Position numbers and translations under genes: made by a program. Shown here piece after piece: positions 2,633-23,690 of a stretch of DNA of 23,690 bases. The notes beneath the pieces are model-generated. The model had not been told where the DNA came from. It did no database searches and worked only from the letters and a program-made list of their open reading frames with translations. Numbering within the stretch: position 1 is the stretch's first letter; each line of letters starts with the position of its first letter. This DNA is from a virus, in IMG/VR virus record IMGVR_UViG_3300031212_000021, positions 1 to 23,690 of that record; one strand, 5' to 3'.

Positions 2633-2650
2633 GGAAACAGGAGGCAAGCC

Positions 2651-4226: not shown

Positions 4227-4237
4227 AGGAAGCTGAC

Positions 4238-5332: not shown

Positions 5333-5341
5333 CCGATAAGC

Positions 5342-5363: not shown

Positions 5364-5388
5364 TCGTTAGGCAAAGAGGGCAACAATC

Positions 5389-5769
5389 ATGCCAAGCAAC
5401 AAAGAGCTAACCACGGAAGCGCAAGGGCTGGCGGAAAAGCTGGAAATCTCGGTTGAAACCGACGGTATGAGCAACGAAAGCCTGGCGGACCTGGTGAAAG
5501 ACCTGCGCGCGAAAACAACCGACGCAGAGACAGACACCCAGGCCGACAAAGCGACCGAAGAGGCGAAAGCTAAAAAAGCCGCCCGCATGGAAAACAAAAA
5601 GCCGAAAGGGAAAAAGCCGGCTTTTTACGTTGCGGCGGGGAAGTCCCTGACCTCGAAGCGCGGCATTCTTTCCGGCGATACCTCGGACGAAGTGAAAGCG
5701 GAACACCTGGGCGGCGGTAAAGAAGCCCTGGACGCCTTCGTGAAGTCCGGCCACGTCCTGAAAGGCTGA
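5389..5769 (+). CDS. gpFI-like small acidic/charged head-neck protein
   Basis: 126 residues, in the place of lambda FI, which helps terminase dock on the prohead. Ribosome site GAGGG (5377-5381). Residues 1-47 are acidic and helical with an LADLVKDLRAK pattern resembling the SAP-like helix found at the start of FI-type proteins. Residues 48-75 are a Lys/Ala-rich tether (KAKKAARMENKKPKGKK). Residues 76-126 form a compact domain: FYVAAGKSLTSKRGIL, then GGGKEALDAFVKSGHVLKG. This C-terminal module is common in phage neck-region proteins annotated as hypothetical. The highly charged middle could bind DNA or the capsid lattice. Function is inferred from position only. Confidence 0.55.
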   Translation: MPSNKELTTEAQGLAEKLEISVETDGMSNESLADLVKDLRAKTTDAETDTQADKATEEAKAKKAARMENKKPKGKKPAFYVAAGKSLTSKRGILSGDTSDEVKAEHLGGGKEALDAFVKSGHVLKG

Positions 5770-5776
5770 ATGAAAA

Positions 5777-6163
5777 ATGGGCCTGCGTGATCTAGTAGAA
5801 CAGGACCTGGGCGCGATTCTTGAAGATAGCGCCACGGGTTTTGGCTGGCCCATTTCATTGACTGACCCCGACGGGCTGACCGACGAAACGTTGGTGGGGT
5901 TTTCTGACGACATAGCCCAGTCTATCGACCCCGACACCGGGGAGCTTGTAAGCGGCCGCCTGGCTTCGGTAGCACTCCGGATTTCTACATTGCACGCGGC
6001 CGGCTTTTCACTCCCGCGCGGCGTAGCAGATACCAGCAAAAAGCCCTGGGTCGTGAAGTTCAACGACATAAACGGGCGGCCCCACGTCTTTATTGTTCGC
6101 CAGGCTAACCCAGACCGGGCAGCCGGCCTTGTCGTGTGCATTTTGGAGGGCTACGACGAATGA
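5777..6163 (+). CDS. Head-tail connector protein, putative (FII/Mu gp37-like position)
   Basis: 128 residues starting MGLRDLVEQDLGAILED, a typical opening for small phage neck proteins, with AAAGG about 11 bases upstream. The second half is beta-rich: RISTLHAAGF, then PWVVKFNDINGRPHVFIVRQ and DRAAGLVVCILEGYD, the style of the head-tail joining proteins that plug the portal or adapt it to the tail. No catalytic motif is visible. It lies between the gpFI-like gene and the putative tail terminator; the stop overlaps the next start as ATGA. The family could not be named with certainty from sequence alone. Confidence 0.5.
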   Translation: MGLRDLVEQDLGAILEDSATGFGWPISLTDPDGLTDETLVGFSDDIAQSIDPDTGELVSGRLASVALRISTLHAAGFSLPRGVADTSKKPWVVKFNDINGRPHVFIVRQANPDRAAGLVVCILEGYDE

Positions 6164-6825
6164 CCCTCGAGCTAATCGACAAGCAGGACGCCGTGGAGAT
6201 TGTGCGCGACCAGATCGCCGCCATTCTTGCCCTGGAAGTCGCGTCCCAAATGTCGCTGGCCACCGCAGCCGGCAAGGACCCGGAACTTTGGAAGCTCCGT
6301 GTGTTCCAGGAGCGCGCGACGCCCTGGGAAAACCTACCCAGCAAGACCCAGGACCGGTCGCCCATCGTTAACGTTTGGTGGGATTCGTGCACGTTCGATA
6401 TGTCCGCCAGCAACGTTGTGGGACGGCAGAAAAGCAGCGCGTCCATTAACATCGACTGCTACGGGTACGGGAAGAGCGCGAACAATCCGGGCGGTGGCCA
6501 CGTTGCCGGCGACCAAAGCGCAGCCGAAGTAGCCCAGCGGGCCGTGCGCCTGGTGCGCAACATTCTGATGGCTGGCGAGTACACGTACCTGGCCCTTCGC
6601 GGCGTCGTTTGGCGCCGGTGGGTCGACAACATTTCTATTTTTCAACCGCAGCAAGACAGCGAGAACGTGCACCACATTGTAGGCGCGCGCCTGTCTTTTC
6701 GGGTAGAATTTAACGAATACAGCCCTCAAGTCCAGCCGGTGACGTTGGAGCTGTTGTCGGTTGACGTGAAACGAACCGAAAACGACGAAATTGTGGTCGA
6801 GGCCGACTACGATTACACGGCATAA
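6160..6825 (+). CDS. Neck / tail-terminator protein, putative
   Basis: 221 residues. An in-frame ATG at 6136 exists, but ATG 6160 is preferred: it forms an ATGA overlap with the upstream stop and has GGAGGG (6145-6150) nine bases away. Residues about 1-30 are a helix (LIDKQDAVEIVRDQIAAIL). The centre has IVNVWWDSCTFDMSASN and SINIDCYGYGKS, alternating strands, then a long helix AAEVAQRAVRLVRNILMAG, and the end is again beta (ARLSFRVEFNEYSP). A helix packed on a beta-sheet with a 'VRVEFNE' closing strand is the pattern of tail-terminator proteins. It directly precedes the sheath gene, where Mu-like phages place this protein. Function is inferred. Confidence 0.5.
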   Translation: MTLELIDKQDAVEIVRDQIAAILALEVASQMSLATAAGKDPELWKLRVFQERATPWENLPSKTQDRSPIVNVWWDSCTFDMSASNVVGRQKSSASINIDCYGYGKSANNPGGGHVAGDQSAAEVAQRAVRLVRNILMAGEYTYLALRGVVWRRWVDNISIFQPQQDSENVHHIVGARLSFRVEFNEYSPQVQPVTLELLSVDVKRTENDEIVVEADYDYTA

Positions 6826-6839
6826 CAGGAGAGCAAACA

Positions 6840-8336
6840 ATGGCACTTTCTAGCGCAGTCGATGCTTCCGCGGTTGCCCGCGTAGTCGGCATCAAAACGA
6901 CGTTTAAAGACTTGCGGGCGGGGGGCGTTTTGTTCTTGCCGCAGCGGGTCGCACTTATCGGGCAGGGCAGCACCGTCGCAACATACGACACCACCAAGTT
7001 CCAGATCACAAGCGCAAGCCAGGCGGGCAGCCGCTACGGCTTCGGGTCGCCCATACACCTGGCGGCCCGGCAACTGTTGCCGGTGAACGGTGACGGCGTG
7101 GGGACAATCCCGGTGACTGTCTACCCGCTGGAAGACGACGTCAGCGGCGTTGCAGCTTCGGGCGACATTACACCCACGGCCGACCAGACAAGCGCCGGGG
7201 CGTACACCGTCCTGGTGAATAACATCCGGTCGGAGCCGTTCGTGGTGAGCGTAGGCGACGCCGTGGGCGACATTGTAACGGCTGTGGCCGAAGCGATTAA
7301 CGCGGTCCTGGAAATGCCCGTGGTTGCTACCGGCAACGCAACCGACGTGGGCCTGGAAGCCAAGTGGGCCGGCGAAAGTTCAAACGGCATTTTCGTTGAA
7401 GTCGTGACACCCGAAACGGGCGCGGCTACCTTCGCGGTCACCCAGCTTTCCGGCGGCCTGCTAAACCCCGACGTTCAGACCGCTTTGGACCAGGTGGGCA
7501 ACGTGTGGGAAACCATGGCGCTTAACTGCCTGGACATTGACGACACCGTGGCCCTGGACGCGTTCAGCACCTTCGGCGAAGGCCGATGGGGCGCCCTGAC
7601 GCGTAGGCCCCTGGTCGTCTTCACGGGCAACACCGCAACGACCGTGGCAAACGCTATCGCCGTTCCGGAAGCCCGCAAGACCGACCGCACCAACGCCCAG
7701 CTAGTCGCCCCCGGGTCGAACGATCTTCCGTTCGCGGTGGCAGCCCGCCAGCTAGCCCGTGTGGTCGTGGTGGCAAACAACAACCCACCCCGTGATTACG
7801 GCAGCCAGGCAGCGACCGGATTGACGCCAGGCGCGGACGGCGTGCAGTGGGCCTATCCGCAGCGCGACCAGGCCGTGAAAGGCGGAAGCTCGACCATTGA
7901 AGTTAAGGACGGCGTGGTGAACGTGTCGGACACCGTGACGTTCTACCACCCGACCGGCGACCCCATCCCGGCCTACCGATATGTTTGCGACATCGTGAAG
8001 TTGCAAAATATCGTTTTCAACCTTGACCTGATTTTCGCAACCCCGCAGTGGGACGGCGCGCCGCTTATCCCGGACGACCAGCCGACCATTAACCGGGATG
8101 CCAAACAGCCGAAAGCGGCCAAAGCGGCCGTGGCTTCGCTGTTGGATAGCCTGGCACTGAACGCGCTTATCAGCGACCCGGAGAGCGCCAAAGCGGCGAC
8201 CCAGGCCGCGATTAACGACCAGAACCCGAAACGCCTGGACGTATTGACAACCGTACAACTGAGCGGCAACACGAACATCATTTCGGTGGACCTGGACTTC
8301 GGCTTCTATTTTGGCGTGCAGCCGCTAGTAGCCTAA
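6840..8336 (+). CDS. Contractile tail sheath protein, Mu gpL-like
   Basis: Outer contractile layer of the tail. 498 residues, nearly the length of Mu gpL (495). Start ATG has AGGAG (6829-6833). The N-terminus (VARVVGIKTTFKDLRAGGVLFLPQRVALIGQG) is the conserved Mu-type sheath opening, followed by ASQAGSRYGFGSPIHLAARQLLP. The middle holds an inserted beta domain (about 100-210), then YGSQAATGLTPGADGVQW, RDQAVKGGSSTIEVKDGVVNVSDTVTFYHPTG, and near the end DQNPKRLDVLTTVQLSGNTNIISVDLDFGFYFG, the C-terminal strand region that links neighbouring subunits. This makes the tail contractile and the phage a myovirus. Assignment is strong. Confidence 0.93.
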   Translation: MALSSAVDASAVARVVGIKTTFKDLRAGGVLFLPQRVALIGQGSTVATYDTTKFQITSASQAGSRYGFGSPIHLAARQLLPVNGDGVGTIPVTVYPLEDDVSGVAASGDITPTADQTSAGAYTVLVNNIRSEPFVVSVGDAVGDIVTAVAEAINAVLEMPVVATGNATDVGLEAKWAGESSNGIFVEVVTPETGAATFAVTQLSGGLLNPDVQTALDQVGNVWETMALNCLDIDDTVALDAFSTFGEGRWGALTRRPLVVFTGNTATTVANAIAVPEARKTDRTNAQLVAPGSNDLPFAVAARQLARVVVVANNNPPRDYGSQAATGLTPGADGVQWAYPQRDQAVKGGSSTIEVKDGVVNVSDTVTFYHPTGDPIPAYRYVCDIVKLQNIVFNLDLIFATPQWDGAPLIPDDQPTINRDAKQPKAAKAAVASLLDSLALNALISDPESAKAATQAAINDQNPKRLDVLTTVQLSGNTNIISVDLDFGFYFGVQPLVA

Positions 8337-8358
8337 CGAATAACCGGAGGAATTGACC

Positions 8359-8742
8359 ATGGCCGCAACTGGCGGAAGCATTGAATCGATTACGCTGGAC
8401 GGCCGGAACTTCCCGGTCGCCGCAGACGCCGAAGCGCAGCGCAAGTTGGGCGGCTTCGAAAACGAAGTGCAAGCCAACGGCAACGGCACCGCCCGTCTTA
8501 TCAAGACCCGCGTGCCCCTGTCGCTGGACGGCATGACCCTGGAAGTGGACGACGCCCGCGGGGACCATGAGTTTTTGCAGAACTTGTCGAACCGCTTTGA
8601 CTACTTCCCGGTAGCGATTACCTACGCGTCCGGGGTAACGTTCCAGGGCACCGCGCAAATTACCGGTGAACTGCAAGCAAGCAGCCAGAACGCCACCGCG
8701 GCCGTGTCGCTGATGGGCCCGGGCATTCTGACCGCACAGTAA
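8359..8742 (+). CDS. Tail tube protein, Mu gpM-like
   Basis: Forms the inner tube through which DNA passes. 127 residues (Mu gpM about 118). An in-frame TTG at 8353 exists, but ATG 8359 has GGAGG (8346-8350) at the right distance. The sequence IESITLDGRNFPVAADAEAQRKLGGFENEVQANGNG is the typical Mu-type tube opening; the remainder is strongly beta (SLDGMTLEVDDARGD, FPVAITYASGVTFQGTAQITGELQ). It immediately follows the sheath gene, the universal order in contractile tails. The stop is followed by a structured intergenic region. Confidence 0.9.
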   Translation: MAATGGSIESITLDGRNFPVAADAEAQRKLGGFENEVQANGNGTARLIKTRVPLSLDGMTLEVDDARGDHEFLQNLSNRFDYFPVAITYASGVTFQGTAQITGELQASSQNATAAVSLMGPGILTAQ

Positions 8743-8758
8743 GAGCGACGGGGGCACT

Positions 8759-8812
8759 GTGCCGTTCGGGACGCCCTACCCTTCGCCTCGGCTTCGGCCG
8801 GGGGAACGGCAC
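8759..8812 (+). promoter_or_regulatory. Three-way-junction RNA structure between tube and chaperone genes
   Basis: The 91-base gap between tube and chaperone genes folds well. An outer perfect 9-bp stem pairs GTGCCGTTC (8759-8767) with GAACGGCAC (8804-8812). Directly inside its 3' arm is a second hairpin, CCTCGGC-TTCG-GCCGGGG (8786-8803), 7 bp with a stable cUUCGg loop. A short GGG-ACG-CCC element (8768-8776) can fill the third branch. No T-run follows, so it is not an intrinsic terminator. It ends 21 bases before the chaperone ATG and could set chaperone expression relative to sheath and tube, or mark an mRNA end. Structure seen by pairing; role inferred. Confidence 0.6.
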
Positions 8813-8833
8813 CCACTCAATAGGGCAAAAACC

Positions 8834-9256
8834 ATGGATACGAAAGAGAACCCGGTGGCACTTGAAGTGGCCGAGGCGGAGTTCGACCGCTTCGCCGATG
8901 AAATGGACCTGGACCTGGACACGTCCCTGATGGACGCCGAAGACCTGGCCCAGTTCGCAAAACAGAAACGTCGGATCCTTCGCGCGATGGAGCGCGGCGA
9001 CCTGACGGTGAATGAGGGCGGCGAAGCGGTATACACGCCCAGCAACGCCCGGTCGAAGCATAGCGACCCCATCACGTTTCACGAACGCACCGGCGCTTCG
9101 CTTATGGCGATGGACGGGAAGAAAAAGGGCCACGACGTTGCGAAAACCTACGCCGTTATGTCCGATATGTGCAGGGTCCACCCGAACGTTTTTGCGGGCC
9201 TGGCCGGCAACGATGCGAAGGTATGCGAGGCGCTTTTCGCGCTTTTAATGGACTAG
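8834..9256 (+). CDS. Tail assembly chaperone, first reading frame
   Basis: 140 residues. The frame is open upstream to 8759, but that part codes through the stem-loop; ATG 8834 has AGGG upstream and gives a sensible acidic N-terminus (MDTKENPVALEVAEAEFDRF). Tail assembly chaperones coat the tape measure before tube polymerisation; they are small, acidic, helical and placed just before the tape measure gene, as this one is. Visible segments: DLAQFAKQKRRILRAMERGDLTVNEGGEAVYTP (about 40-72), then FHERTGASLMAMDGKKKGHDVAKTYAVMSDMC (about 81-113). The final codons CTT TTC GCG CTT TTA ATG GAC TAG lie in a zone where a -1 shift would enter the next frame (separate entry). Confidence 0.7.
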   Translation: MDTKENPVALEVAEAEFDRFADEMDLDLDTSLMDAEDLAQFAKQKRRILRAMERGDLTVNEGGEAVYTPSNARSKHSDPITFHERTGASLMAMDGKKKGHDVAKTYAVMSDMCRVHPNVFAGLAGNDAKVCEALFALLMD

Positions 9257-9465
9257 TCGGGGTTCCGTTGGTTCGGGTGGGTGCGGACTTTAAGCACCCC
9301 CAGCGGGGCCATATAGCGGACCGGGTATACGGCGAAATGCTTTTGCAGGTTTGCAGGGACTACCCGGGGTTGCCCGACCCACGTACACTAAAAGCCCGGG
9401 AGATTCGTTTTTTCTACGAGGGGCTCCGGGGCGAACTCACAGAGCACTCGAAGCCGAAGGGGTAA
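9244..9465 (+). CDS. Tail assembly chaperone, -1 frame extension
   Basis: After the chaperone stop the -1 frame is open to 9465 and reads as real protein: VGVPLVRVGADFKHPQRGHIADRVYGEMLLQVCRDYP in pieces, then DPRTLKAREIRFFYEGLRGEL near the end, a motif seen in small proteins just before tape measure genes in Mu-like phages. It has no good ATG start. A -1 slip at G-CTT-TTA (9241-9247), or at the similar G-CTT-TTC nine bases earlier, would join it to the first frame, giving a protein of about 210 residues. Two-frame chaperones made this way are conserved in tailed phages (Xu, Hendrix and Duda). The alternative is separate initiation at TTG 9268 or GTG 9277, for which GGGG at 9259 is a possible site. 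The slip heptamer is not canonical, so the mechanism is uncertain; the coding frame is not. Confidence 0.65.
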   Translation, partial: FNGLVGVPLVRVGADFKHPQRGHIADRVYGEMLLQVCRDYPGLPDPRTLKAREIRFFYEGLRGELTEHSKPKG

Positions 9466-9468
9466 AGC

Positions 9469-11163
9469 ATGGCGGGCCGCTTTTCAGTAGAAGCAGTATT
9501 TAAAGCGGTGGACCGCGTAACCGCCCCGGTTTCGCGTATGCAGACGAAGGTTCGGAAGTTCACCCGTGCTATGTCGCGCGGGTTGCGGTCCGCTGATCGT
9601 GCCGTTAGTCGCCTGGTTGGAAAGATGGGCAAGGGGGCGGCGCGGGTTGCAAAGTTCGGCGGCGCAATCCTGGCCGTCGGTTCCGCCGCGGCGGTTACCG
9701 CATTAAACCGAACGGCCGACGCGGCCGACGAACTGGCGAAGCAATCGCGGCGCCTTCAGTTCCCCATTGAAGACCTGCAAGAATGGAAGTTTGTGGCAGA
9801 GCAGTCCGGCGTATCCACGGGCCTTCTGGACAAGTCCCTGGGCGCGTTTTCGAAGCGTCTAGGCGAAGCCAAAGGCGGAATGGGCCCGCTAGTCACCGGC
9901 CTCAAAAAGATAAACCCGCAGCTTTTAAAGCAACTGCAGGGGACCGACGACGTGGCCAAAGCGTTCGAGATATACATCGACGCGATGCGCAACGCGGACA
10001 GTGCCACCGAAAAAGCCGCCCTGGCAAACGCGGCGTTCAGCCGGCAAGGTTTGAAGCTCGTCAACATTGCCGACAATAGTTCCGAAGCCATTGCCGCCCT
10101 TCGCAAAGAGCAGAACGAGAACGGCAACATAACCATGGCCCAGGCCAAAGCCGCCGAGGCTTACAACGACGCGGCGAACAGCTTAAAGCGCAGCCTGATG
10201 GGGCTGTTGCAGCAGGTGATACTCCCGATGACCCCCGCGATAACGAAGACCCTGAGCAAGTGGCGCGAGTGGATAGTGGCCAACAAAGACCTGATACGCA
10301 CCCGAATCACCGAGTTCCTGAAGGGCCTGTGGTCGCGTCTAAAAGCCGTGACCCGGGCGGTTATCGAGTTTAACGACAAGTACGACATAGCCGAAATGTT
10401 GGGCGCGGGCCTTGACAAGATAGGGAAGTTCGCGTCGTTTGTTGAGCGCAACGGCGAGATGATTTTCAAGATGGTAGCCGCTTTTGTCGCAGCGTCGGCC
10501 GCCCTGAAAGTGTTTTCAGCGATAATGGCGGTCGTTAACCTGGTCATGCTGGCGAACCCTATAACGTGGATAGTTCTGGGCATCGTGGCCCTGATCGCGG
10601 CTATCGTTGCGGCCGTCGTGTACTGGGACGAAATCAAGGCGGCTATGTCGTCGTTTGCCGCGTCGGTTATGAGTGACGTGGCGCCGGCAATCGACTGGCT
10701 TAAAAGCGGCGCGGAGAAAGTGACCGGCGCCTGGTCGGTCGTGTCCGATTTCTTCGCGGAGCTATGGGCCGGAGTGACCGCCAGCTTTTCAGACGCCTGG
10801 TCGATGATCAGCGGCATTGTGGACAAAGTAATGGGCGCCGTTAACGTCGTGAAGAACGCCGCCGGCAAGGTTTCCGACTTCGGTTCTGGCGTGGTGGATT
10901 CGACGACGGGCGCGGTGAAGAACGCAGCGTCCGGCGTTGCCGGTTTCTTTGGGTTCGGGGACGACGAAGAGAAGAAACAGCCCTCCGGAGGCCAAAGCGC
11001 GGCCGTGGTTCAAAGCCCGCAGGAGCGCGTCGCCCGTTCAATCGAAGAGCGCCGCCAGACCAGTTCGGCGGAAGTAACCATACGGGATGAAAGCGGCCGC
11101 GCGGAAGTAACCAAAGGCAGCATGGGCGCCGGCGTATCGCTACAACGAACGGGGGCCCTATAA
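9469..11163 (+). CDS. Tail tape measure protein
   Basis: Sets tail length and leaves the tube at DNA ejection. Ribosome site AAGGGG (9457-9462). 564 residues; at the usual 1.5 angstrom per residue this suggests a tail near 85 nm. The N-terminal 60 residues are very basic (VRKFTRAMSRGLRSADRAVSRLVGKMGKGAARVAK in pieces). A hydrophobic stretch lies at about 63-79, a long helical region follows (80-330), and a strong membrane-like block at about 331-386 contains MAVVNLVMLANPITWIVLG and IVALIAAIVAAVVYW, the segment thought to insert in the inner membrane at infection. The C-terminus carries DEEKKQPSGGQS and is charged. Stop overlaps the next ATG (TAATG). No lysozyme or peptidase domain is seen. 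Confidence 0.9.
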   Translation: MAGRFSVEAVFKAVDRVTAPVSRMQTKVRKFTRAMSRGLRSADRAVSRLVGKMGKGAARVAKFGGAILAVGSAAAVTALNRTADAADELAKQSRRLQFPIEDLQEWKFVAEQSGVSTGLLDKSLGAFSKRLGEAKGGMGPLVTGLKKINPQLLKQLQGTDDVAKAFEIYIDAMRNADSATEKAALANAAFSRQGLKLVNIADNSSEAIAALRKEQNENGNITMAQAKAAEAYNDAANSLKRSLMGLLQQVILPMTPAITKTLSKWREWIVANKDLIRTRITEFLKGLWSRLKAVTRAVIEFNDKYDIAEMLGAGLDKIGKFASFVERNGEMIFKMVAAFVAASAALKVFSAIMAVVNLVMLANPITWIVLGIVALIAAIVAAVVYWDEIKAAMSSFAASVMSDVAPAIDWLKSGAEKVTGAWSVVSDFFAELWAGVTASFSDAWSMISGIVDKVMGAVNVVKNAAGKVSDFGSGVVDSTTGAVKNAASGVAGFFGFGDDEEKKQPSGGQSAAVVQSPQERVARSIEERRQTSSAEVTIRDESGRAEVTKGSMGAGVSLQRTGAL

Positions 11164-12407
11164 TGGCTTGGTTGGATAGACTAAACGAGGCGGCCTACAC
11201 GTCGCCAGGCGGCACCCGGCAGACCTTCGAGTATGAAGACGTGCGGAGTGAATTTGATAAAAAAACCGGGGCGTTTGGTTTTGTAGACGCTAACGGCACC
11301 TACGTCCAGGACCGCGGCAACACGGGTCGCCGGTACCCGTTGCGCTTGTTTTTCTGGGGCCCAGATTACGACATTGCTGCAGCGTCATTCGAAGCGCTGT
11401 TGCTTGAGCGTGGCGCGGGTCGCCTTGAGCACCCCGCCTACGGCACCGTGGACGTGGTGCCGTTCGGTACCATTACGCGCCGGGACGACCTAAAGAGCGC
11501 CGGCAACCAGGCGGTGCTGGAAGTCATTTTCTTTGAAACTATCGGCATTATTTACCCGACCGGCCAGACCGACCCGGGTTCTTCGGTCCTGTCCGCCGTG
11601 GATGCGTACAACGCGGCCGTGTCGGAGCAGGTAGCCAGCGCCCTGGACTTGACCGCCCCGGCGTCCCTGGTAACGTTTAAAAGCACGTACGACGGGCTGT
11701 TAGAAACCGCCGAAGCGGGCCTGCGGGCGCTGGCCGACACCCAGGAAGCCGGCCAGCGGCAATTCGACGCAATAAGCGAATCGATAAACCGGGGCATTGA
11801 TGTCCTGGTTGCTACGCCGCTTGACCTGATTTTCCAGACCACTCTTTTGATTCAATCGCCGGCCCGTTCTTTGTCGGCCATATCCGCCCGCCTGGATGCG
11901 TACAAAGACTTGGCCGCGTCGCTTTTAACTGGCACCGGTGCCGCGGTACCCGCCAGCCCAGGCGTGCAAGACGCCAATGCGTTCTACGCCCGGGAGGCGT
12001 TCGCGTCGTCTTATGTTAGCGGTTCCGTGGTGTCGGCGGTGAACGCCCGGTTCGAAACCAAAGCCGCCGCCCTGACCGCCGCCGAGTCGATACTTGGCCA
12101 GCTTGCAGACGTTGAAGCGTGGCGCGAAGGTAACTACGCGGCCCTTGGCGCGATAGACACGGGCAGGGCGTACCAAAGGCTGCAGGAAGCCGTGGCGCTA
12201 ACCGCCGGCTTTCTCGTTGAAATATCGTTCTCGCTCAAACAGGAACGGGCCGTAGTCCTGGACCGGGCGCGAACCATCGTGGACCTTTCGGCGGAGCTTT
12301 ACGGGTCCGTGGACGACCAGCTAGATTTTCTTATTAATTCGAACAATCTGACCGGGTCGGAAATTTTAGAACTACCGAAGGGGCGCCGCATTGTTTATTA
12401 CGTCTAA
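11163..12407 (+). CDS. Mu gpN-like tail protein (DNA circularisation N-terminal family)
   Basis: 414 residues. The first 130 carry the family signature: WLDRLNEAAYTSPGGTRQTFEYEDVRSEFDKKTGAFGF in pieces, then DRGNTGRRYPLRLFFWGPDYD and RLEHPAYGTVDVVPFGTITRRDDL. Pfam names this domain after a supposed role of Mu gpN in DNA circularisation, but in contractile tails the protein sits at the baseplate centre, connecting hub and tube. Residues about 150-400 are helical, rich in Ala, Leu and Ser, with several heptad-like stretches, consistent with an oligomeric ring. Located after the tape measure and before the hub, exactly as N precedes P in Mu. The end overlaps the hub start by 17 bp. Confidence 0.85.
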   Translation: MAWLDRLNEAAYTSPGGTRQTFEYEDVRSEFDKKTGAFGFVDANGTYVQDRGNTGRRYPLRLFFWGPDYDIAAASFEALLLERGAGRLEHPAYGTVDVVPFGTITRRDDLKSAGNQAVLEVIFFETIGIIYPTGQTDPGSSVLSAVDAYNAAVSEQVASALDLTAPASLVTFKSTYDGLLETAEAGLRALADTQEAGQRQFDAISESINRGIDVLVATPLDLIFQTTLLIQSPARSLSAISARLDAYKDLAASLLTGTGAAVPASPGVQDANAFYAREAFASSYVSGSVVSAVNARFETKAAALTAAESILGQLADVEAWREGNYAALGAIDTGRAYQRLQEAVALTAGFLVEISFSLKQERAVVLDRARTIVDLSAELYGSVDDQLDFLINSNNLTGSEILELPKGRRIVYYV

Positions 12408-13614
12408 CGCCGGTGACACGTTTGAAAGCTTATCGCGCCGGGCGTACGGCACAGAGAAGTTCGCCCAGAACTTAGCGCAAGCGAACCCCGGCGTCCTGGA
12501 ACCGGTGGCACCGGGCACCGTCGTCACTATCCCGCAGATACCCGGCGACCCTACAAACAGCCCCACCCAGGCGCCGGCCGGCGACCCTAACGAAGTGGCG
12601 GTCCTGGTGGACGGCGTCCGCTTTCGCTTTTGGTCGGAACTTCGCCTGACCCGTTCAATGGACAGCATGGACACCCTGGAATTTACCGCGCCGTTCGAAC
12701 CGGACGACCCGGCGTTCCGGGAAACGTTCCGGCCTTTCAGCTTTAAGCCGCTTGTCGTGACCGTGGGCGGCGTCCCGCTATTTACCGGAACGCTTGTGGG
12801 GGTCGTCCCTTCGGTGTCCGGAGATAGCACCACAGTGGCAGTGTCGGGCTATTCGCGGCCGGGCGTTCTGGAAGATTGCACCCAGCCGGCGTCCGCCCCC
12901 GTCGAATTTAACGCCCAGGACCTACCCGGCATTGCGTCGTCTATTTGCCAGCCTTTCGGCATTGCGGCCGCGTTTAGCGGGCCGGGCGGCGCCGCATTCG
13001 AACGGGTAGCGGTTGAAACGGGCGAAAAAGTCATGGGGTTCCTGGGCGAACTGGCGCGCCAACGCGGTCTGGTTATATCCAGCGACCCAGACGGCCGCGC
13101 GCTTTTCCAGCGTTCCGTAAAGCCCGGGCAGCCGGTGGCCGTACTTCGCCAGGGCGCTTCGCCGGTCCTGGGCGTGTCGGCGTTCTTTTCGCCGCAACAA
13201 TACTACAGCCACATAACTGGCCTGGAGTCGGTCGTGATCGGTACCGGCGGTTCGCAGTACACCGTCCGCAACCCATACCTGGCCGGCGTGGTTCGCCCCT
13301 TGACGTTCAAAAGTCCCGACACCGAAGGCGGCACCATTAAAGAGTCTGTGGAAGCAAAAGCGGGTCGAATGTTCGGCAACATGGCCGCCTACGGTTTGCA
13401 AGTAAGCACCTGGCGCGACCCGGCGGGCGCGCTTTGGCGGCCTAATACCACCCTAAAGCTAGAAGCCCCGGGCGCCATGATCTATTCAAGTTATGAATTT
13501 GTGGTGCGTTCGGTCCGTTTTGACAGCGAAACCGACAGCGAAACCGCGGAACTCGACCTGGTTCTTCCGGGTTCGTTTAGCGGCGAAATACCGGAGTCGA
13601 TGCCTTGGGACTAA
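12391..13614 (+). CDS. Baseplate hub protein, Mu gpP-like, with N-terminal LysM/gpX-like domain
   Basis: Central hub of the baseplate (gp27-like) that holds the spike. The start is TTG 12391, inside the preceding gene, supported by AAGGGG about seven bases upstream and by the N-terminal domain it begins. Residues 1-50 (GDTFESLSRRAYG, then QANPGVLEPVAPGTVVTIP) match the LysM-like P2 tail protein X pattern: GDT start, YG, ANPG, PGT and a final hydrophobic strand. A Pro-rich linker (about 52-66) leads to the hub: VLVDGVRFRFWSELRLTRSMDSMDTLEFTAPF in pieces, FTGTLVGVVPS, AVSGYSRPGVLEDCTQP, and later RPLTFKSPDTEGG and VRSVRFDSETDSETAELDLVLPG. In P2 the X domain is a separate gene; here it is fused. 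407 residues (Mu gpP about 379). Confidence 0.85.
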   Translation: MFITSNAGDTFESLSRRAYGTEKFAQNLAQANPGVLEPVAPGTVVTIPQIPGDPTNSPTQAPAGDPNEVAVLVDGVRFRFWSELRLTRSMDSMDTLEFTAPFEPDDPAFRETFRPFSFKPLVVTVGGVPLFTGTLVGVVPSVSGDSTTVAVSGYSRPGVLEDCTQPASAPVEFNAQDLPGIASSICQPFGIAAAFSGPGGAAFERVAVETGEKVMGFLGELARQRGLVISSDPDGRALFQRSVKPGQPVAVLRQGASPVLGVSAFFSPQQYYSHITGLESVVIGTGGSQYTVRNPYLAGVVRPLTFKSPDTEGGTIKESVEAKAGRMFGNMAAYGLQVSTWRDPAGALWRPNTTLKLEAPGAMIYSSYEFVVRSVRFDSETDSETAELDLVLPGSFSGEIPESMPWD

Positions 13615-14147
13615 TCGGCCGCGTTCTGTCTTTCGTTAGAACTTCACGCAACGCCGCCCAGGTGGCCGACGTGAAAATGGACCCGGGCGGCGGCGGCGTG
13701 AACGTTACGGCGGAGCACTTCGCGCCCCCGGGCGATGACGCGTTCCCGCTAGGCACCGACTACGTATACGCCGGCGCAACCCCGCAACGCGGACGGGTCG
13801 CCGCCGTAGGGTATATTGACCCCCTAAACGCGCCCAAAGCGCGGAGGGGCGAAAAGCGCATATACTCCCGCGACTCCGCCGGCGCGGTGGTCGCCGACCA
13901 CTGGCTGAAAGCCGACGGTTCGGTAGTTACTGAAAACGAGAACGGGTCTGTGACGCTGGGCGCGGACGGGTCTATACTGGCGCAAAACGCGGACGGGTAT
14001 TTTGAACTGCAAGCGGGCGGGGCTTTTGTCGCAAACGGGGCAACGGCAACAACCGACGGCGATTTTGTAACCTCGGACGGGGTGAGCCTTCGGGACCACA
14101 CGCACATCGGGAACTTTGGATCACCAACCAGCAAACCAATTATTTAA
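13605..14147 (+). CDS. Baseplate spike protein, Mu gp45-like
   Basis: Cell-puncturing spike at the tip of the tail. TTG 13605 is taken as start: GGAG (13593-13596) lies eight bases upstream and the next in-frame ATG is only at codon 25, inside the conserved domain. 180 residues. The N-terminal OB-like part contains VADVKMDPGGGGVNVTAEHFAPPGDDAFPLGTDYVYA in pieces; this is followed by a repeated beta-helix-like stretch (VTENENGSVTLGADGSILAQNADGYFELQAGG in pieces). The C-terminus DHTHIGNFGSPTSKP has the His-x-His of Mu gp45 and P2 gpV, whose trimer coordinates iron at the needle apex. Overlaps the hub stop by 10 bp. Confidence 0.88.
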   Translation: MGLIGRVLSFVRTSRNAAQVADVKMDPGGGGVNVTAEHFAPPGDDAFPLGTDYVYAGATPQRGRVAAVGYIDPLNAPKARRGEKRIYSRDSAGAVVADHWLKADGSVVTENENGSVTLGADGSILAQNADGYFELQAGGAFVANGATATTDGDFVTSDGVSLRDHTHIGNFGSPTSKPII

Positions 14148-14159
14148 AGGTGTTTAAAA

Positions 14160-14567
14160 ATGGCAATCGCATACGTTACGGCATTAAGGAACTCAAGAAT
14201 GGCGGAAGTAACGGCAGAAATCGACGCCGGGTCCGCCGGCGGAACCATCAAAATTTACAACGGGACGCGGCCCGCGACGGGCGGATCGGCAACGACTTTG
14301 CTGGCGGAACTGACTTTTGCCAGCACTTCTTTCGGTGCGCCTTCGTCCGGGCGCATTACCGCCAACACTATCAGCCCCGACACCGACGCCAACGCGACCG
14401 GAACGGCAAGCTGGTTTAGAATAGCGGGCTCGAACGGGGCTTTTGTGGCGGACGGCACCGCGGGTTTAACTGGGTCGGGGGCTGACCTAGAATTAAATTC
14501 CGTTAGTATTGGCGCCGGGCAAAGAGTAGAGGTGACTTCTTTTTTAATTACCGAAGGCAACCCATAA
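14160..14567 (+). CDS. Conserved phage structural-type protein of unknown function
   Basis: 135 residues, ribosome site AAAGG (14146-14150). The layout is one N-terminal helix (AYVTALRNSRMAEVTAEIDAG, in the pattern 'short amphipathic helix then Gly-rich strand') followed by a beta domain: GGTIKIYNGTRPATGG, TTLLAELTFASTSFGAP, ITANTISPDTDANATGTASWFRI, and a final INTSISAGQ-like strand ending VEVTSFLITEGNP. I recognise this pattern from many small hypothetical proteins in phage tail gene clusters, but no role is established that I can name. It lies between the gp45-like spike and the repeat protein, in a place where Mu has no gene, so it may decorate the baseplate or bind the fibre. The A+T content is somewhat higher than in its neighbours. 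Confidence 0.7.
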   Translation: MAIAYVTALRNSRMAEVTAEIDAGSAGGTIKIYNGTRPATGGSATTLLAELTFASTSFGAPSSGRITANTISPDTDANATGTASWFRIAGSNGAFVADGTAGLTGSGADLELNSVSIGAGQRVEVTSFLITEGNP

Positions 14568-14581
14568 AAAAGGCGTAGGCT

Positions 14582-15946
14582 ATGACGGTTCTTGCGCTCG
14601 TTGAAAGCGGCGATAGCCGCGTCGAGTGTGGGGCGGTCGAAGCGCAGTGCACCGGAAAGGTAACGTACATTGCCGTTTCCGCGGTTAAGCTGGTGATGTG
14701 CGGCGACACTGGCGCGGAAGCTGGCGAGCCTGGCGCGTTTTGCACCGGGCTAGTAATCGGCGGAACAATTGAAGAACGGCCGGACGCGGTCGAAGCGATC
14801 GGCGCTTCCGACGTAAAAACCGGATTTGGCGACGTAACCGAAGGCCCCGACGTGGCCGACGGTTCGGGCCGCATCGTGACCACCGCAGCTGGCGACGTAA
14901 CCGAAGCCCGGGACGCGCCTAGCGGTTCGGGCCGCATCGTGACCACCGCAGCTGGCGACGTGACCGAAGCCCGGGACGCGGCCGACGGTTCGGGCCGCAT
15001 CGTAACCGTCGCAGCTGGCGACGTGACCGAAGCCCGGGACGCGCCCAGCGGTTCGGGCCGCATCGTGACCACCGCAGCTGGCGACGTAACCGAAGGCCCC
15101 GACGTGGCCGACGGTTCGGGCCGCATCGTGACCACCGCAGCTGGCGACGTAACCGAAGCCCGGGACGCGCCTAGCGGTTCGGGCCGCATCGTAACCGTCG
15201 CAGCTGGCGACGTAACCGAAGGCCCCGACGCGCCCAGCGGTTCGGGCCGCATCGTGACCACCGCAGCTGGCGACGTAACCGAAGCCCGGGACGCGCCTAG
15301 CGGTTCGGGCCGCATCGTGACCACCGCAGCTGGCGACGTGACCGAAGCCCGGGACGCGCCCAGCGGTTCGGGCCGCATCGTAACCGTCGCAGCTGGCGAC
15401 GTGACCGAAGCCCGGGACGCGGCCGACGGTTCTGGACGGGCCTTAAACCAGTTAGAGTTGGGGCCGTTAATTGCTGTTTTTAACGCGATAGTTAACGACC
15501 AGTACCAAAACCCCGGGAGCAAAACCCCGTTGCAGCTATCTCAAGAATTTCAAGCCGCCTACATATCGTACGGAAAAACGGGCTCAGTTCTTGGCGTCGA
15601 TATTGTGGCCGGCGGCAATCCGCCGGCGTTAAACCCGGCGTTTTTTGCTGACAACACGGCGGCCGGTATCGACCGAATAGCGGACAACATTGCCGCCTAT
15701 TGGCAAACCGTAATTACGCCAGGAGCGCCCGCGCACGGCGGAACCGTCGTTTTGTCTGTTGAAGTAGTTCCGGACGTACCGGCCTTGCGCGCGGCTATTG
15801 TGGAGGCATCAACCGCGCCCGAAACGGCGCCCGGAGGCACGACCAACGTACTGACCGCTATCCAGCGAGAGCTTAAAACTTGGGTTTTCATAGTCACTGA
15901 AAGGGTCACCGGCTTGCCGGTCGCTTTTTTTGAAAGTATCATATAG
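14582..15946 (+). CDS. Repeat protein with 21-residue tandem repeats, putative baseplate/fibre-associated
   Basis: 454 residues in three parts. Residues 1-82 contain four Cys (16, 23, 40, 54) in ECGAVEAQC and MCGDTGAEAGEPGAFC. Residues 83-286 are nine complete and one partial copy of a 21-residue unit of the form GDVTEARDAPSGSGRIVTTAA (21 residues; core GDVTE..D...GSGRIVT). Alternating Val/Thr strands and Gly/Asp/Ser turns suggest an extended beta or solenoid stalk. Residues 287-454 form an unrelated, more AT-rich globular part with QLSQEFQAAYISYGKTG and TNVLTAIQRELKTWVF. Ribosome site: AAAAAGG. It sits between spike and gp46 genes. Function unknown; an elongated surface or baseplate appendage is the simplest reading. 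Family not identified. Confidence 0.75.
   Translation: MTVLALVESGDSRVECGAVEAQCTGKVTYIAVSAVKLVMCGDTGAEAGEPGAFCTGLVIGGTIEERPDAVEAIGASDVKTGFGDVTEGPDVADGSGRIVTTAAGDVTEARDAPSGSGRIVTTAAGDVTEARDAADGSGRIVTVAAGDVTEARDAPSGSGRIVTTAAGDVTEGPDVADGSGRIVTTAAGDVTEARDAPSGSGRIVTVAAGDVTEGPDAPSGSGRIVTTAAGDVTEARDAPSGSGRIVTTAAGDVTEARDAPSGSGRIVTVAAGDVTEARDAADGSGRALNQLELGPLIAVFNAIVNDQYQNPGSKTPLQLSQEFQAAYISYGKTGSVLGVDIVAGGNPPALNPAFFADNTAAGIDRIADNIAAYWQTVITPGAPAHGGTVVLSVEVVPDVPALRAAIVEASTAPETAPGGTTNVLTAIQRELKTWVFIVTERVTGLPVAFFESII
14828..15439 (+). repeat. 63-bp in-frame tandem repeat, 9.7 copies
   Basis: Units begin at 14828, 14891, 14954, 15017, 15080, 15143, 15206, 15269, 15332 and 15395 (last copy incomplete). Spacing is exactly 63 bp, so every unit keeps the frame. 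Units differ at only a few fixed places: GTA or GTG for the first Val; GAAGGCCCCGAC or GAAGCCCGGGAC; ADG or PSG (the Pro as CCT or CCC); and GTGACCACC or GTAACCGTC. Variants recur in different combinations rather than drifting singly, pointing to duplication and recombination between units. Copy number may change by slippage and may be miscounted in short-read assemblies. Confidence 0.97.
15908..15931 (+). terminator. Terminator-like hairpin plus T7 run inside the 3' end of the repeat gene
   Basis: ACCGG-CTTG-CCGGT (15908-15921 region) forms a short perfect GC stem followed three bases later by seven T (15925-15931). This looks like an intrinsic terminator, but lies 15 bases before the stop codon of the repeat protein, so elongating ribosomes would normally mask it. 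It could make downstream baseplate expression depend on translation of the repeat gene, or mark the old boundary of an inserted gene. The stem is only 5 to 6 bp, so the effect may be small. Confidence 0.45.
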
Positions 15947-15967: not shown

Positions 15968-16417
15968 ATGAGCGGGCAGCAAGGCGACGTCCTATTATTC
16001 CAAACGAACGACGGCGGGGACGTGTCGGTGTTGGGCGGCCTGGTGAAAATGTCGGGCGGCCTGGAAACCGCAGCGTACCTGTCCCTGTTCGGCGGCAACG
16101 AAGGCGACAACGGCCAAGCGAACAACCCGGGCACCTGGTGGGGCAACGTTAACGAACCGGACCCGCAGCGCCAGTACCGAAGCGAGACCCAGCACCTGCT
16201 TCAGTCCCTTGTCGCCATTCCGGCCAATTTGCGCCGACTAGAACGATCGGCCGTTCGCGATTTGTCCTGGATGATTACGGCCGGTGTAGCCACCGACGTT
16301 TCGGCGGTCGCCAGCATGCCGGGGCTAAACAAAGTGCGGATAGCCGTTACCATAAACGCGGAAGGGTCGCCTTCTACCATTGAGTTTTTTGAGAACTGGA
16401 AGGCGGACGCGCTATGA
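15968..16417 (+). CDS. Baseplate wedge protein, Mu gp46-like (gp25-related)
   Basis: Small wedge component that starts sheath assembly on the baseplate. 149 residues. The opening GDVLLFQTNDGGDVSVLGGLVKMSGGLETAAYLSLFGGNEGD, in pieces, and NPGTWWGNV are the signature of the Mu gp46 family; the C-terminal half has LERSAVRDLSWMI and the strand VRIAVTINAEGSPSTIEFFENWKAD, the EPR-like domain region shared with gp25 wedges. The ribosome site is weak (GGGA eight to nine bases before ATG). The stop overlaps the next start in ATGA. Order gp46-gp47-gp48 is as in Mu. Confidence 0.9.
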   Translation: MSGQQGDVLLFQTNDGGDVSVLGGLVKMSGGLETAAYLSLFGGNEGDNGQANNPGTWWGNVNEPDPQRQYRSETQHLLQSLVAIPANLRRLERSAVRDLSWMITAGVATDVSAVASMPGLNKVRIAVTINAEGSPSTIEFFENWKADAL

Positions 16418-17610
16418 GCTTTACGACACCCACAACACAGCAGATTAACGACAACATAATCGCCCAGCTTGAAACGTCCCTGGGGCAAAGCATCCCGCTT
16501 TTGCCTCGCTCTTTTTTGCGCGTCCTGGCCAAAGCTTTGTCGGCGGTTTTCATCCTAATCTACAAGTACGCCGGCTTTTCGTTTTTACAGCAATTCGTTC
16601 AGACCGCCAGCATAGACCCTACGGTAATAAACGGCGTTACGGTTCGGCCTTTGATTGAATGGGGGCGCCTGGTGGGCGTTACCGATCCGGTCTCAGCGAC
16701 GGCGGCCGAACTTGTCGTGGACATAGCCGTAGAAGACCAGGCCGGCGTTTTGCCGTCCGGCACTCAGCTTTTGAACGCGGCCAACGGCGTCACCTACACC
16801 ACGATCGGGGCCGTTAGTTTAAACGCCGCCACCGTACAGGCTACTATTCGGGCGGCAAGCGACCAGGCCGGGGGCGGTGGACTCGGGGCTTTGGGGAACC
16901 TCGCAGTAAGCGACGAGGTGTCCTTTGCCAACCCGCTTTCAAACGTTGCCCGCACAGCCGTTGTGACTTCCGTTGCCGTGACGGCAGCGAACGCCGAAAG
17001 CACCGCAGCGTACCGCCAGCGGGTCATTGACAAGTTCCAGAAACGCCCCCAGGGCGGCGCCTACTCAGATTACGAAGGGTGGGGCGAGGGGGTCGCCGGC
17101 ATCGTTAACGTCTACCCGTACACCAGCGAGTTTCCCGGCCAAGTTGCGGTGTACGTCGAAGCCACTCCGGCCAGCAGCGGGGACCCAGACGGCATCCCGA
17201 CGGATGCGCAACTGCAAAGCGTCCTGGACGCCATAGAACTAGACGCCGACGGCCTAGCGTCCCGCCGCCCGGCCGGTGCGCTTGTGAACGCCTTCCCGAT
17301 TGAACGGGTCGAATTTCAGGTGACGGTTGACGGCCTGGATGTACTGGAACCGGCAACGGTTGAAGTCCGCGTGACCGACGCTTTAGAAAAATACTTTTTG
17401 TCCCGGGAACCTTATATTTTCGGCCTGTCCGTCCCGCCTAGAACGGACCGCATTTCACAGGGCCAAGTGGCCGGGGTAGTCAGCGACATTGTCAGCGCGT
17501 CCGGCGGCGTTTTCAACACCGTTACAGTTCGGACCGGAACCATAGCCGTCGCCATTTTCTCTTTAGGAACCGGCAAAAAGGCGAAGCTTGACTCGGTGAC
17601 TTTTTCATGA
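16414..17610 (+). CDS. Baseplate protein J family, Mu gp47-like
   Basis: Main wedge protein that surrounds the hub and carries the fibres. 398 residues; Mu gp47 is of similar size. Start overlaps gp46 (ATGA), with GGAAGG (16398-16403). Residues 1-60 are helical (QINDNIIAQLETSLGQSIPLLPRSFLRVLAKA in pieces). Family hallmarks: GRLVGVTDPVSATAAELVVDIA, LPSGTQLLNAANGVTYTT, the strongly conserved ESTAAYRQRVIDKFQKRPQGGAYSDYEGW region in pieces (about 195-222), and VNVYPYTSEFPGQVAVYVEA. The C-terminal part ends in a short beta domain (TVRTGTIAVAIFSLG). Followed by the gp48-like gene with a further ATGA overlap. Confidence 0.93.
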   Translation: MSFTTPTTQQINDNIIAQLETSLGQSIPLLPRSFLRVLAKALSAVFILIYKYAGFSFLQQFVQTASIDPTVINGVTVRPLIEWGRLVGVTDPVSATAAELVVDIAVEDQAGVLPSGTQLLNAANGVTYTTIGAVSLNAATVQATIRAASDQAGGGGLGALGNLAVSDEVSFANPLSNVARTAVVTSVAVTAANAESTAAYRQRVIDKFQKRPQGGAYSDYEGWGEGVAGIVNVYPYTSEFPGQVAVYVEATPASSGDPDGIPTDAQLQSVLDAIELDADGLASRRPAGALVNAFPIERVEFQVTVDGLDVLEPATVEVRVTDALEKYFLSREPYIFGLSVPPRTDRISQGQVAGVVSDIVSASGGVFNTVTVRTGTIAVAIFSLGTGKKAKLDSVTFS

Positions 17611-18422
17611 CTTTTTTTCGCGCGTTCCAGCACCTGTTGCCGAAGGCGCGCGCGTGGCTGCTAACGCCAGAGAAACCCCTCCGCAAACTGTTTGAAGGGC
17701 TGTCCGGCGTTGGGGCCGACGCCAAAGAGTTTATCGATAACGTTTGGCTGGACCTATTCCCGCAATCAACGCGCGAACTGGACAAGTGGGAGCAGCAATT
17801 CGGCCTGCCGTCTTCTGACTTAAACACCCAGGGCCGGCGCGAGCGTTTAGACGCGGAGTGGAAAGCCTTGGGCGGACAAGACCCGCGGTACTTCCAAGAC
17901 GCTTTGCGCGGTGCCGGGTTTGACGTTTACGTGCACGACTGGTGGGTGCCCGGGTCCGAAGCCGCCGTGGGTGCAAGCGCCGCCGCTACGCCCCGCAATC
18001 CGCTGCAGTACCTGGAACGCGGTTCGCCCGGTTTTGAAAGCCTGGTCGAATGCGGGGAACCGCTGGCGCAATGCGGTGAAGCGTTCGCGGAAGCCGGCAA
18101 CATCCTGGAGCCCATCGGGCTTGCGCTTGTTAACAAAGTGGTCGAAACAATCGCCGACACATTGCCGCTGTGCGGCGAAGCGTTTGTAGAATGCGGGGCC
18201 GCCGGCGCTATTGCAGGCGATTACGACCAGTTTATAAACCAGACTAAAGAGTACACTGTCCCGGCGTCGCCGACGTTTTGGCCGTTCTTTTTCTACATTG
18301 GCGGAGAGACCTTCCCGGAGCAAGCGACCGTGCCCGAAGCGAGGCGCGACGAATTTGAAAATCTATGCCTAAAGATCGGCCCAACGCAATTGTGGCTCGG
18401 GCTTTTGGTCCGGTTCACGTAA
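17607..18422 (+). CDS. Baseplate/tail protein, Mu gp48-like (DUF2313)
   Basis: Last baseplate gene before the fibre; in Mu and P2 (gpI) it joins the wedge to the tail fibre. 271 residues. N-terminus FFRAFQHLLPKARAWLL and FEGLSGVGADAKEFIDNVWLDLFPQSTRELDKWE in pieces are typical DUF2313, as is the C-terminus YTVPASPTFWPFFFYIGGE and ARRDEFENLCLKIGPTQLWLGLLV. Between them (about 145-200) is an insertion-like segment with four Cys in two CX6C pairs (149/156 and 189/196; VECGEPLAQCGEAF, LCGEAFVECG). This segment also resembles the Cys-containing start of the repeat protein. The start is in an ATGA overlap with no clear ribosome site, so coupled translation is likely. Confidence 0.9.
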   Translation: MTFFRAFQHLLPKARAWLLTPEKPLRKLFEGLSGVGADAKEFIDNVWLDLFPQSTRELDKWEQQFGLPSSDLNTQGRRERLDAEWKALGGQDPRYFQDALRGAGFDVYVHDWWVPGSEAAVGASAAATPRNPLQYLERGSPGFESLVECGEPLAQCGEAFAEAGNILEPIGLALVNKVVETIADTLPLCGEAFVECGAAGAIAGDYDQFINQTKEYTVPASPTFWPFFFYIGGETFPEQATVPEARRDEFENLCLKIGPTQLWLGLLVRFT

Positions 18423-22121: not shown

Positions 22122-23690
22122 TCAGTCTTTCCGGTAACGGTAATCTTCCCATCCAGCCGCCCGCAGCGGCCACCAGGTTGCCCAGGATGGGCGTTCGGCC
22201 ATTATAGCTTCCATGGCCCCGACGCTGTACGCGGGGTCGTCGGGGACTTCCGCGCACCCTTCGTCGTGCGTATGCATGACAATCGGGTAGCCGGCCCGCT
22301 CACATCGTAGCAGGGCTTCGAACTGAATATCAGCCGAAACGGCCTGGTCGACGTTTTCAAACAGGCGGCCGCCGTAGGTGTCCATACGAACCCACCCGGG
22401 CGGCCCCTTCGTGGCGTTGCTGTTGTACCCTTCGAACGTGATCTGGTAGCACGGCCCGCGGTTCAGCTTATCGACGGCATCGACCAGGCGCGGGCGGTGG
22501 TAGTGCAGGAAGCGACCCGACGGGAGCCGGCAGAACAGGATATCGTCGGCCACACCGTAGGTTATGTCTAGGTACTGAAAGCACTGGCCGGGGTAAAGTA
22601 TCGCCTTTATGGCGGCGCCTTCCAGGCCGAAAAGCTCCGGCTTATAGTCCCATTTCCCGGGCCCGCACCAACGAAATTGACCGCCCCACATTTCGACTAT
22701 TTCCGGGGATTCGTCGCGCCACTTGAGCACGTCCGCTTTTATTTCCCCGTCGTCGTTGAAGTAGTCGTCGGCCCCAAAGTTCTTCCAGGCGCCTATCCAG
22801 CCGCCGTAGCCACCCGCCAGTTCGCGGATTTTCCCGACGCCCTTTCGCGCCGGGTGGTGCGTGCCGTGTTGCTTCTTATAAGCCAGGATTTCTTCGAACG
22901 GTATGCCGGTGGCGTTGCTGGCGGACGCTTCGTATATTTTGCCGTGGGTGTTGAACACGTCGATGCGCCACTGGCACCGAGATATACAGGCCGCCGCCAC
23001 GGCTTCGATGGCGGAGAAATCGACACAGACCAGCTTTTTACCCGGGGCGGCGATGAACAGCCCGCGCAGGATACCGCACAGGACCGCAACCGGGGCGCCC
23101 CATGCCCGTTCGACCCATGCCAGGTCGCCCGTGCGTATGTCTTCGACGGCCTGGCACACCGCTTCGATGGTCCAGTCGTTCAGTTCATGCCAAAGCCAGG
23201 ACCCGCACCGGGGGCAGCCGATTTCGGACACGTCCCGCCCGAATATCTTATTGCACCCCGTGTCTTCGCACCGGGCCGTCTTCGGGCCCTTCGCGGTAAT
23301 GTTCTGAAGCTGGACGCCGCCAGCGGCCGCCCGCCCGGTTCGGTCCGCGCCGCAATACTTGTACTGGTCGCGCAGCCGCCCGTCGCTGGACGTTTGCAGC
23401 CGCAACGACCGTAGCTTTTTGACGTTGGCCGCGCCCAGGCTATCCCGGGTTTCCAGAGCTTCGCGGACGTGGGCCGGTATGTCGCCGGTCTTCAAGACTT
23501 CCCGCACCGTGTCGGCTTTCATGTCGGGTTGCGGGTAGCCCTGGTCGGCCAGCCAGGCGCCGAACTTCGCGACCTCAGACACCGAACCAACGGCGCCCTG
23601 GGTGATTTCGCACAGCCGCAGGGTGTACTTGCGTTCGGCCTGGCCTAGAACTTGCAGGGCAGCGTCCAGGGTTTGCACGTCCACCTGGAC
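22122..23690 (-). CDS. DNA polymerase, family A (PolA-like), C-terminal part; 5' end outside window
   Basis: Replicative phage polymerase. The frame stays open to the right edge (VQVDVQT...), so the GTG at 23684 is probably internal. Numbering from that GTG: the TGR-LQN motif at about 112-130 (ADRTGRAAAGGVQLQNIT), motif A at 219-228 (VCVDFSAIEA, Asp222), motif B at 280-294 (RKGVGKIRELAGGYG, Lys285 and Tyr293; Lys281 stands at the usual Arg position), and motif C at 472-476 (THDEG, Asp474 and Glu475). All polymerase residues for catalysis are present. An unusual zinc ribbon lies at 139-160 (CX4C-X12-CX2C; Cys139, 144, 157, 160), between the LQN motif and the finger/palm start. The exonuclease domain, if any, is outside the window. 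Convergent with the structural genes. Confidence 0.92.
   Translation of the reverse strand, partial: VQVDVQTLDAALQVLGQAERKYTLRLCEITQGAVGSVSEVAKFGAWLADQGYPQPDMKADTVREVLKTGDIPAHVREALETRDSLGAANVKKLRSLRLQTSSDGRLRDQYKYCGADRTGRAAAGGVQLQNITAKGPKTARCEDTGCNKIFGRDVSEIGCPRCGSWLWHELNDWTIEAVCQAVEDIRTGDLAWVERAWGAPVAVLCGILRGLFIAAPGKKLVCVDFSAIEAVAAACISRCQWRIDVFNTHGKIYEASASNATGIPFEEILAYKKQHGTHHPARKGVGKIRELAGGYGGWIGAWKNFGADDYFNDDGEIKADVLKWRDESPEIVEMWGGQFRWCGPGKWDYKPELFGLEGAAIKAILYPGQCFQYLDITYGVADDILFCRLPSGRFLHYHRPRLVDAVDKLNRGPCYQITFEGYNSNATKGPPGWVRMDTYGGRLFENVDQAVSADIQFEALLRCERAGYPIVMHTHDEGCAEVPDDPAYSVGAMEAIMAERPSWATWWPLRAAGWEDYRYRKD

Follow-up and report, generated by a model that had tools for sequence, protein, structure and literature searches.

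A 21-residue tandem-repeat protein as a candidate string for a phage garland

Here we present an analysis of a 63-bp tandem array in a 23,690-nt stretch of viral DNA (IMG/VR virus record IMGVR_UViG_3300031212_000021, positions 1 to 23,690), referred to below, at its full length, as the window. The array lies in a gene for a 454-residue protein, directly downstream of a gene whose product is homologous to a garland protein of phage Milano. The garland homology of this neighbour, the recurrent linkage of garland genes to arrays across phages, and the unit period and consensus that these arrays have in common make it likely, as judged by sequence comparison, that the garland protein has the repeat protein as its evolutionary or structural partner. 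The features on which the argument draws are listed here; L numbers designate the contigs and phage records that were compared.

13605-14147, + strand: gp45-like spike gene (matched by blastp at the gp45 position of 15 loci)
14160-14567, + strand: garland protein gene (phrog_3758), homologous to Milano gp127 and to chain A of PDB 9rkv
14582-15946, + strand: open reading frame (ORF) of the tandem-repeat protein, 454 aa, the proposed string (from frame and units)
14606-14656, + strand: first heptad module, with Cys and an xG at every seventh residue, read from sequence
14699-14749, + strand: second heptad module, CGxxxxxAGxxxxxCTG, read from sequence; a similar insert occurs in the L008 array
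14768-14830, + strand: diverged unit ahead of the array, at a spacing of 22 aa (from anchor spacing)
14831-15432, + strand: 63-bp tandem array of nine complete units followed by part of a tenth (Tandem Repeats Finder, frame, lag identity)
15428-15943, + strand: C-terminal domain, elsewhere also a stand-alone gene at the gp45/gp46 junction
15968-16417, + strand: gp46-like baseplate wedge gene (phrog_180, E 3e-20)
16414-17610, + strand: gp47-like gene, baseplate J family (Pfam PF04865, E 1e-28)
17607-18422, + strand: gp48-like wedge gene, BW3 counterpart (phrog_4920, E 2e-50; phrog_203); its two heptad modules lie at 18051-18101 and 18171-18221

Results

The upstream gene encodes a homologue of garland proteins

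The 135-aa product of 14160-14567 was identified as a garland protein by sequence homology. It matches phrog_3758 (E 3e-32), Milano gp127 (tblastn, 37%, E 8e-12) and, from 7-7-1, 9rkv_A (phmmer E 4e-8; a profile of seven homologues, E 1e-12), a chain that we infer to be a garland chain from its likeness to Milano gp125 and from the papers. The gene ends 15 bp upstream of the repeat gene. This neighbour had not been remarked on in the initial annotation of the window.

In 7-7-1, garland proteins are described as encircling the distal parts of the fibres (PMC12796354). The Milano garland is composed of gp125 and gp127, which have the fold of T4 gp8 and A511 gp105; according to the Milano authors, the string in A511 is the wedge protein BW3, whose extended chain carries such dimers like threaded beads, and it is unclear what acts as glue or string of the Milano garland itself (PMC10811340). 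Milano and 7-7-1 have in common with the window a homologue of the upstream gene, a small garland protein and a tail gene cluster, but the gene between their two garland genes (gp126 and gp104, respectively) lacks a tandem array. With the A511 gp105 and T4 gp8 connectors (BW3TFN) the likeness lies in the Milano garland fold and the proposed beads-on-a-string principle; whereas the A511 string is described as part of BW3, in the window a separate tandem-repeat protein is proposed. A literature search joining garlands with tandem repeats returned no relevant report, and one for BW3TFN led only to the Milano paper.

Arrays recur downstream of garland genes

Of 424 contigs with a garland gene, the 80 that most resemble the window were used to assess the association, and their frames were scored for internal period. 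The garland gene had not been called in 13 of the 80 loci; counts of periodic frames and of linkage located it by coordinates. Among the 44 loci having enough sequence, 30 had a frame with a 20-22-residue period in the 4 kb that follow the garland gene, and one had such a frame in the 4 kb that precede it. The controls were 253 loci without a garland homologue: 227 random 4-kb windows drawn from them contained no such frame, and a period of 20-22 occurs in 7 of their 6496 frames. Widening the range to 18-24 residues gave 34/44 downstream, 1/44 upstream and 8/227 in control windows, and the period was exactly 21 in 41 of the 59 periodic frames downstream of the garland gene. After removal of the discovery lineages, 26 of 40 loci still showed the linkage, as did 12 of the 19 groups formed at 70% identity (Fisher p 6e-16), so that the repeat gene is linked to the garland gene across lineages.

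A unit consensus, T-[NE]-x-x-D-T-x-x-A-S-G-x5-G, was obtained from 141 distinct units in 30 loci or records; their selection required D and G/A at two positions and left the remaining ones free. In four cultured phages with a garland gene, Papyrus, Charlie, Pan4 and VSN-002, a neighbour likewise contains repeats, roughly 20-22 residues long; these phages were picked from the match list without a control, with low scores for Papyrus and Charlie and an assignment by eye for VSN-002. In this last one, a Sphingopyxis phage, the unannotated 1.5-kb gap that follows the garland homologue (L298:5390-6883) is an open Gly-rich frame with repeats of some 21-22 residues by eye. Against PDB, the array proteins of L351 and L314 matched the repeat region of a large clostridial toxin (E 3e-8 and 4e-6), which we read as a common 21-residue period and composition.

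Units of the array are mosaics

Tandem Repeats Finder reported a period of 63 with 9.6 copies at 14827-15432 (score 939). Unit starts fall at 14831+63n, in frame with ORF 14582-15946; units 1-9 are complete, and unit 10 matches no further than about 15432. Base identity at lag 63 was 0.885 in the array versus 0.284 upstream of it (window 1-14827), which excludes chance. The array is thus real and in frame as initially annotated, although the ten units then counted are nine and a partial tenth, with the diverged 22-residue unit before unit 1.

The two-state variants described initially agree with a unit-by-unit check, except that the PSG/ADG block has three states at the DNA level. CCT-PSG is confined to units 2, 6 and 8, each with GTA and ARDA; CCC-PSG occurs in units 4 and 9 with GTG and ARDA and in unit 7 with GTA and GPDA; the TV variant is found in units 3, 6 and 9. 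For the variant-block pairs A-E, B-D and D-E all four combinations are present, which bears out the suggested reshuffling and implies that units were recombined internally, by exchange or conversion with end points within units, and not only copied whole. Of units 1-2 and 5-6, for which a block duplication was suggested, the pair order recurs and the exact pair does not: units 1 and 5 are identical, but units 2 and 6 differ by 3 bases. Homogenisation, also proposed earlier, is supported, since units from one lineage resemble each other more than they do those of another, whereas all lineages retain the 21-residue period. An antisense frame (14548-15522, - strand, 324 aa) is also open through the array; it was given no weight because a stop-free 63-bp unit stays open at any copy number.

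Copy number differs in some near-identical contigs

L002 carries an array identical to that of the window (12.8 kb at 99.99% identity), and L003, L006 and L007 hold partial arrays, identical over their extent, with contigs ending inside the array. L004 and L008 are about 88% and 85% identical in DNA to the window in aligned stretches. Their mutual identity is 99.86% over 4.4 kb, yet they have 2 versus at least 13 units; the L008 array also carries an inserted heptad module. Similarly, L028/L164 have 5 units and L036/L165 have 8, with 99.9% identity over 6.9 kb downstream. In L017 (Vibrio phage 367.14) and L166, with 14 and 16 anchors, the unit sequences are quite different and the 21-residue spacing is kept nearly throughout. 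No array length difference was seen within L322/L323, L348/L350/L352 or L364/L366. The idea that copy number changes readily is therefore favoured by two near-identical contig pairs and disfavoured by four other sets, including the window and L002, in which length is the same.

Domains flanking the array

The 454-residue protein has an N-terminal part with two heptad modules, followed by the diverged 22-residue unit and the array; the last 170 or so residues form the C-terminal domain. The N-terminus matches gp48 of AeroV_348 (blastp E 5e-5). With a profile of the gp48 module, matches were obtained to the repeat proteins of L166, L017 and L028/L165, to that of L008 at a weak level, and to gp46 of VP16T and VP16C; the window's own repeat protein was not among the matches of this search. 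By eye, the heptad types of the repeat protein and of gp48 agree phage by phage: CG in the window (14606-14749 and 18051-18221), QDG in Vibrio phage 367.14 (L017, 5914-6171 and 9165-9995) and CGHDLA in L028 (588-1625 and 3264-4088). These matching sequence types hint at a common partner or at concerted change. In L021, repeats of about 40 residues, beta-propeller-like by reading of the sequence rather than by a family match, are fused to the gp46-like protein (2633-3862) and also lie inside the gp48-like protein (4955-6583), the same decoration in two baseplate proteins.

Homologues of the C-terminal domain, found by DNA motif and profile search, include among the matches listed L021, L025, L027, L030 and L041, all stand-alone genes of 165-173 aa situated directly after a gp45-like gene and before the next baseplate genes. 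Of the loci with a gp45 apex motif, again among the matches listed, 24 of 115 have a C-domain frame within 4 kb, of stand-alone size except in L288, the contig of L166. Since the domain is elsewhere mostly stand-alone after gp45, the array seems to have been added to a pre-existing baseplate gene. Searches of the domain against Pfam, PHROG, NCBIfam and PDB gave no family; hits to phrog_26270 (E 0.0065) and in PDB (0.09) were disregarded. That the domain marks a special gp45 apex was considered, as all nine lineages found first have GNLG or GNFG near the gp45 end, and rejected as a strong claim on the 24 of 115.

The gene order, a gp45-like gene, the 135-aa gene, the repeat gene and then homologues of gp46, gp47 and gp48, is that of a Mu-like baseplate cluster (gp44-gp48 homologues in order); Pfam and PHROG matches and the order in relatives confirm the location assigned initially. 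A megablast of the 23.7-kb window against 50,697 phage records gave no match, nor did a plasmid search. The repeat protein matched no fibre family in Pfam or PHROG, with sub-threshold matches only. The repeat regions of L028 and L017 match phrog_38872 (E 9e-11 and 1e-9), among whose matches the window protein is not found; the L324 match to it falls outside the L324 array. At the far end of the window, a long ORF (22122-23690, - strand) runs off the end; relatives have a DNA polymerase annotated at the corresponding place.

Array and garland gene occur together in four lineages of the window's group

Within the window's phage group, array and garland gene are present together in four lineages (the window, L166, L028/L165 and L017), and neither is present in eight relatives (isolates L167-L172 and L176, and contig L021). 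In L167-L170, L172 and L176, related via gp47 and gp48, gp45 is followed by gp46 with neither gene between. Vibrio phage 97.13 (L171) lacks both genes, whereas its relative 367.14 (L017), 83-86% identical on either side, has both. In these two Vibrio mediterranei phages the end of gp45 is swapped along with the garland and repeat genes (L017:5280-7538 versus L171:5086-5374).

Marine phages of the VP16T and SppYZU01 types have homology and the order gp45-gp46-gp47-gp48-fibre in common with the window. The SppYZU01 type, unlike the window, has neither garland nor repeat gene. In the VP16T type (VP16T, VP16C and 1.009.O) the 135-aa gene is present and gp46 has an N-terminal extension with one heptad module, but, again unlike the window, there is no array. 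Fibre length showed no clear pattern with array presence: L166 has an array and a 525-aa fibre frame, and L172 has neither an array nor a long fibre.

Predicted structure of the array

AlphaFold2 gave a beta-rich model of the array (predicted local distance difference test, pLDDT, about 80), which structural comparison places near single-stranded beta-helices, tailspikes and 7-7-1 fibre chains (Z 12-15); Foldseek against PDB and BFVD gave nothing below E 0.001. For L166, with diverged units, the model was also beta-rich, at a pLDDT of about 50-67 in the front of the array and 30-40 in the rest. We do not use the beta-solenoid as evidence, because near-perfect repeats are described as yielding such beta-rich models (PMC11795689) and confidence is much lower for the diverged L166.

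Discussion

The array may act as the string of a beads-on-a-string garland, with binding of beads unit by unit, a proposal made by analogy that we regard as evenly balanced. Each 21-residue unit would be an extended segment gripped by one gp8-like garland dimer, both the contact and the ratio of one unit per bead being modelled on the A511 precedent as told in PMC10811340. Unit number would then set the bead count and the reach of the garland. Attachment of the string to the baseplate would be the role of the C-terminal domain, and the N-terminal heptad modules are similar to those of the gp48-like wedge protein; the anchored end and any effect of copy number are, like the contact, what we infer. 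Recombination within the array would keep the units alike and could alter their number.

Several findings weigh against this proposal and the partnership behind it. The loci of the association are mutually related and were the most window-like of the garland-bearing contigs, and 14 of the 40 non-discovery loci have no 20-22 period frame at the threshold used. Nine of these misses show periods of 23, 24, 42, 44 or 65 and five show none, among them L302, with a 23-residue array upstream, and L355, with a 21-residue array that starts 4.2 kb downstream. Milano gp126 and 7-7-1 gp104 each hold a single similar-looking motif, without a significant match to the unit profile (E 3 for 7-7-1; gp126 unlisted). 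The VP16T-type phages have the garland gene and at most two degenerate units in the gp46 extension, where the unit-profile match is likewise not significant. Finally, the idea that the heptad modules serve garland binding specifically was rejected, as gp48 has them in phages without a garland gene.

The initial annotation took the protein to be extended, perhaps a fibre or whisker reaching the host; the adjoining garland gene suggests instead that it belongs to the receptor-binding network, as a thread or connector. A related alternative, in which the array would form the shaft of an independent fibre or whisker (a beta-solenoid or trimeric beta-fibre) with its length given by unit number and the garland merely decorating or capping it, would fit the tail-operon position and the beta-rich model with its structural matches. 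We consider it unlikely, given a Foldseek search with nothing below E 0.001, the low confidence of the L166 model, and the co-occurrence of repeats and garland genes far outside the window's group, which a free fibre does not predict. Less likely still, the array would be mucin-like and flexible and would simply space the N-terminal modules from the C-terminal domain, its individual sites having no partner and its copy number drifting neutrally. Unit sequences do change between lineages while their length is kept, and the protein has a weak Pfam Mucin-like match (E 0.001, below the family cut-off), but many lineages have, beside the same gene, a period of exactly 21 residues together with the T-[NE]-x-x-D-T-x-x-A-S-G consensus, and a pure spacer needs neither.

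Compatible with any of these functions is the view that assembly produced the copy-number differences and that array length does not vary within a phage, a serious possibility that we rate somewhat below even. Three of the five window-type contigs (L003, L006 and L007) end within the array, which L002 and the window span, and two of them stop at unit position 51, before a variant block, as an assembler would at a branch. Low copy numbers may for this reason be collapses, as could be the case for L004 (2 units) and L028 (5 units). It is harder to account in this way for L165, which has a unit variant missing from L028/L164, differs from them by exactly 3 units and has a downstream flank 99.9% identical to theirs.

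Conclusions

Extending the string proposal beyond the window is more tentative: many tailed phages may possess a dedicated string protein with one 21-residue unit per gp8-like bead, in which recombination within the array would change the number of beads, and hence the reach or strength of attachment, stepwise. If so, the array would be a genetic ruler for the receptor-binding network. Encoded beside the garland gene in many phage groups, the repeat protein is a concrete candidate for the glue or string that the Milano authors call unclear (PMC10811340), and it suggests a likely role for a large set of unannotated 21-residue repeat proteins. As a system it is simple, since the number of repeats could be set against a virion structure that can be counted.
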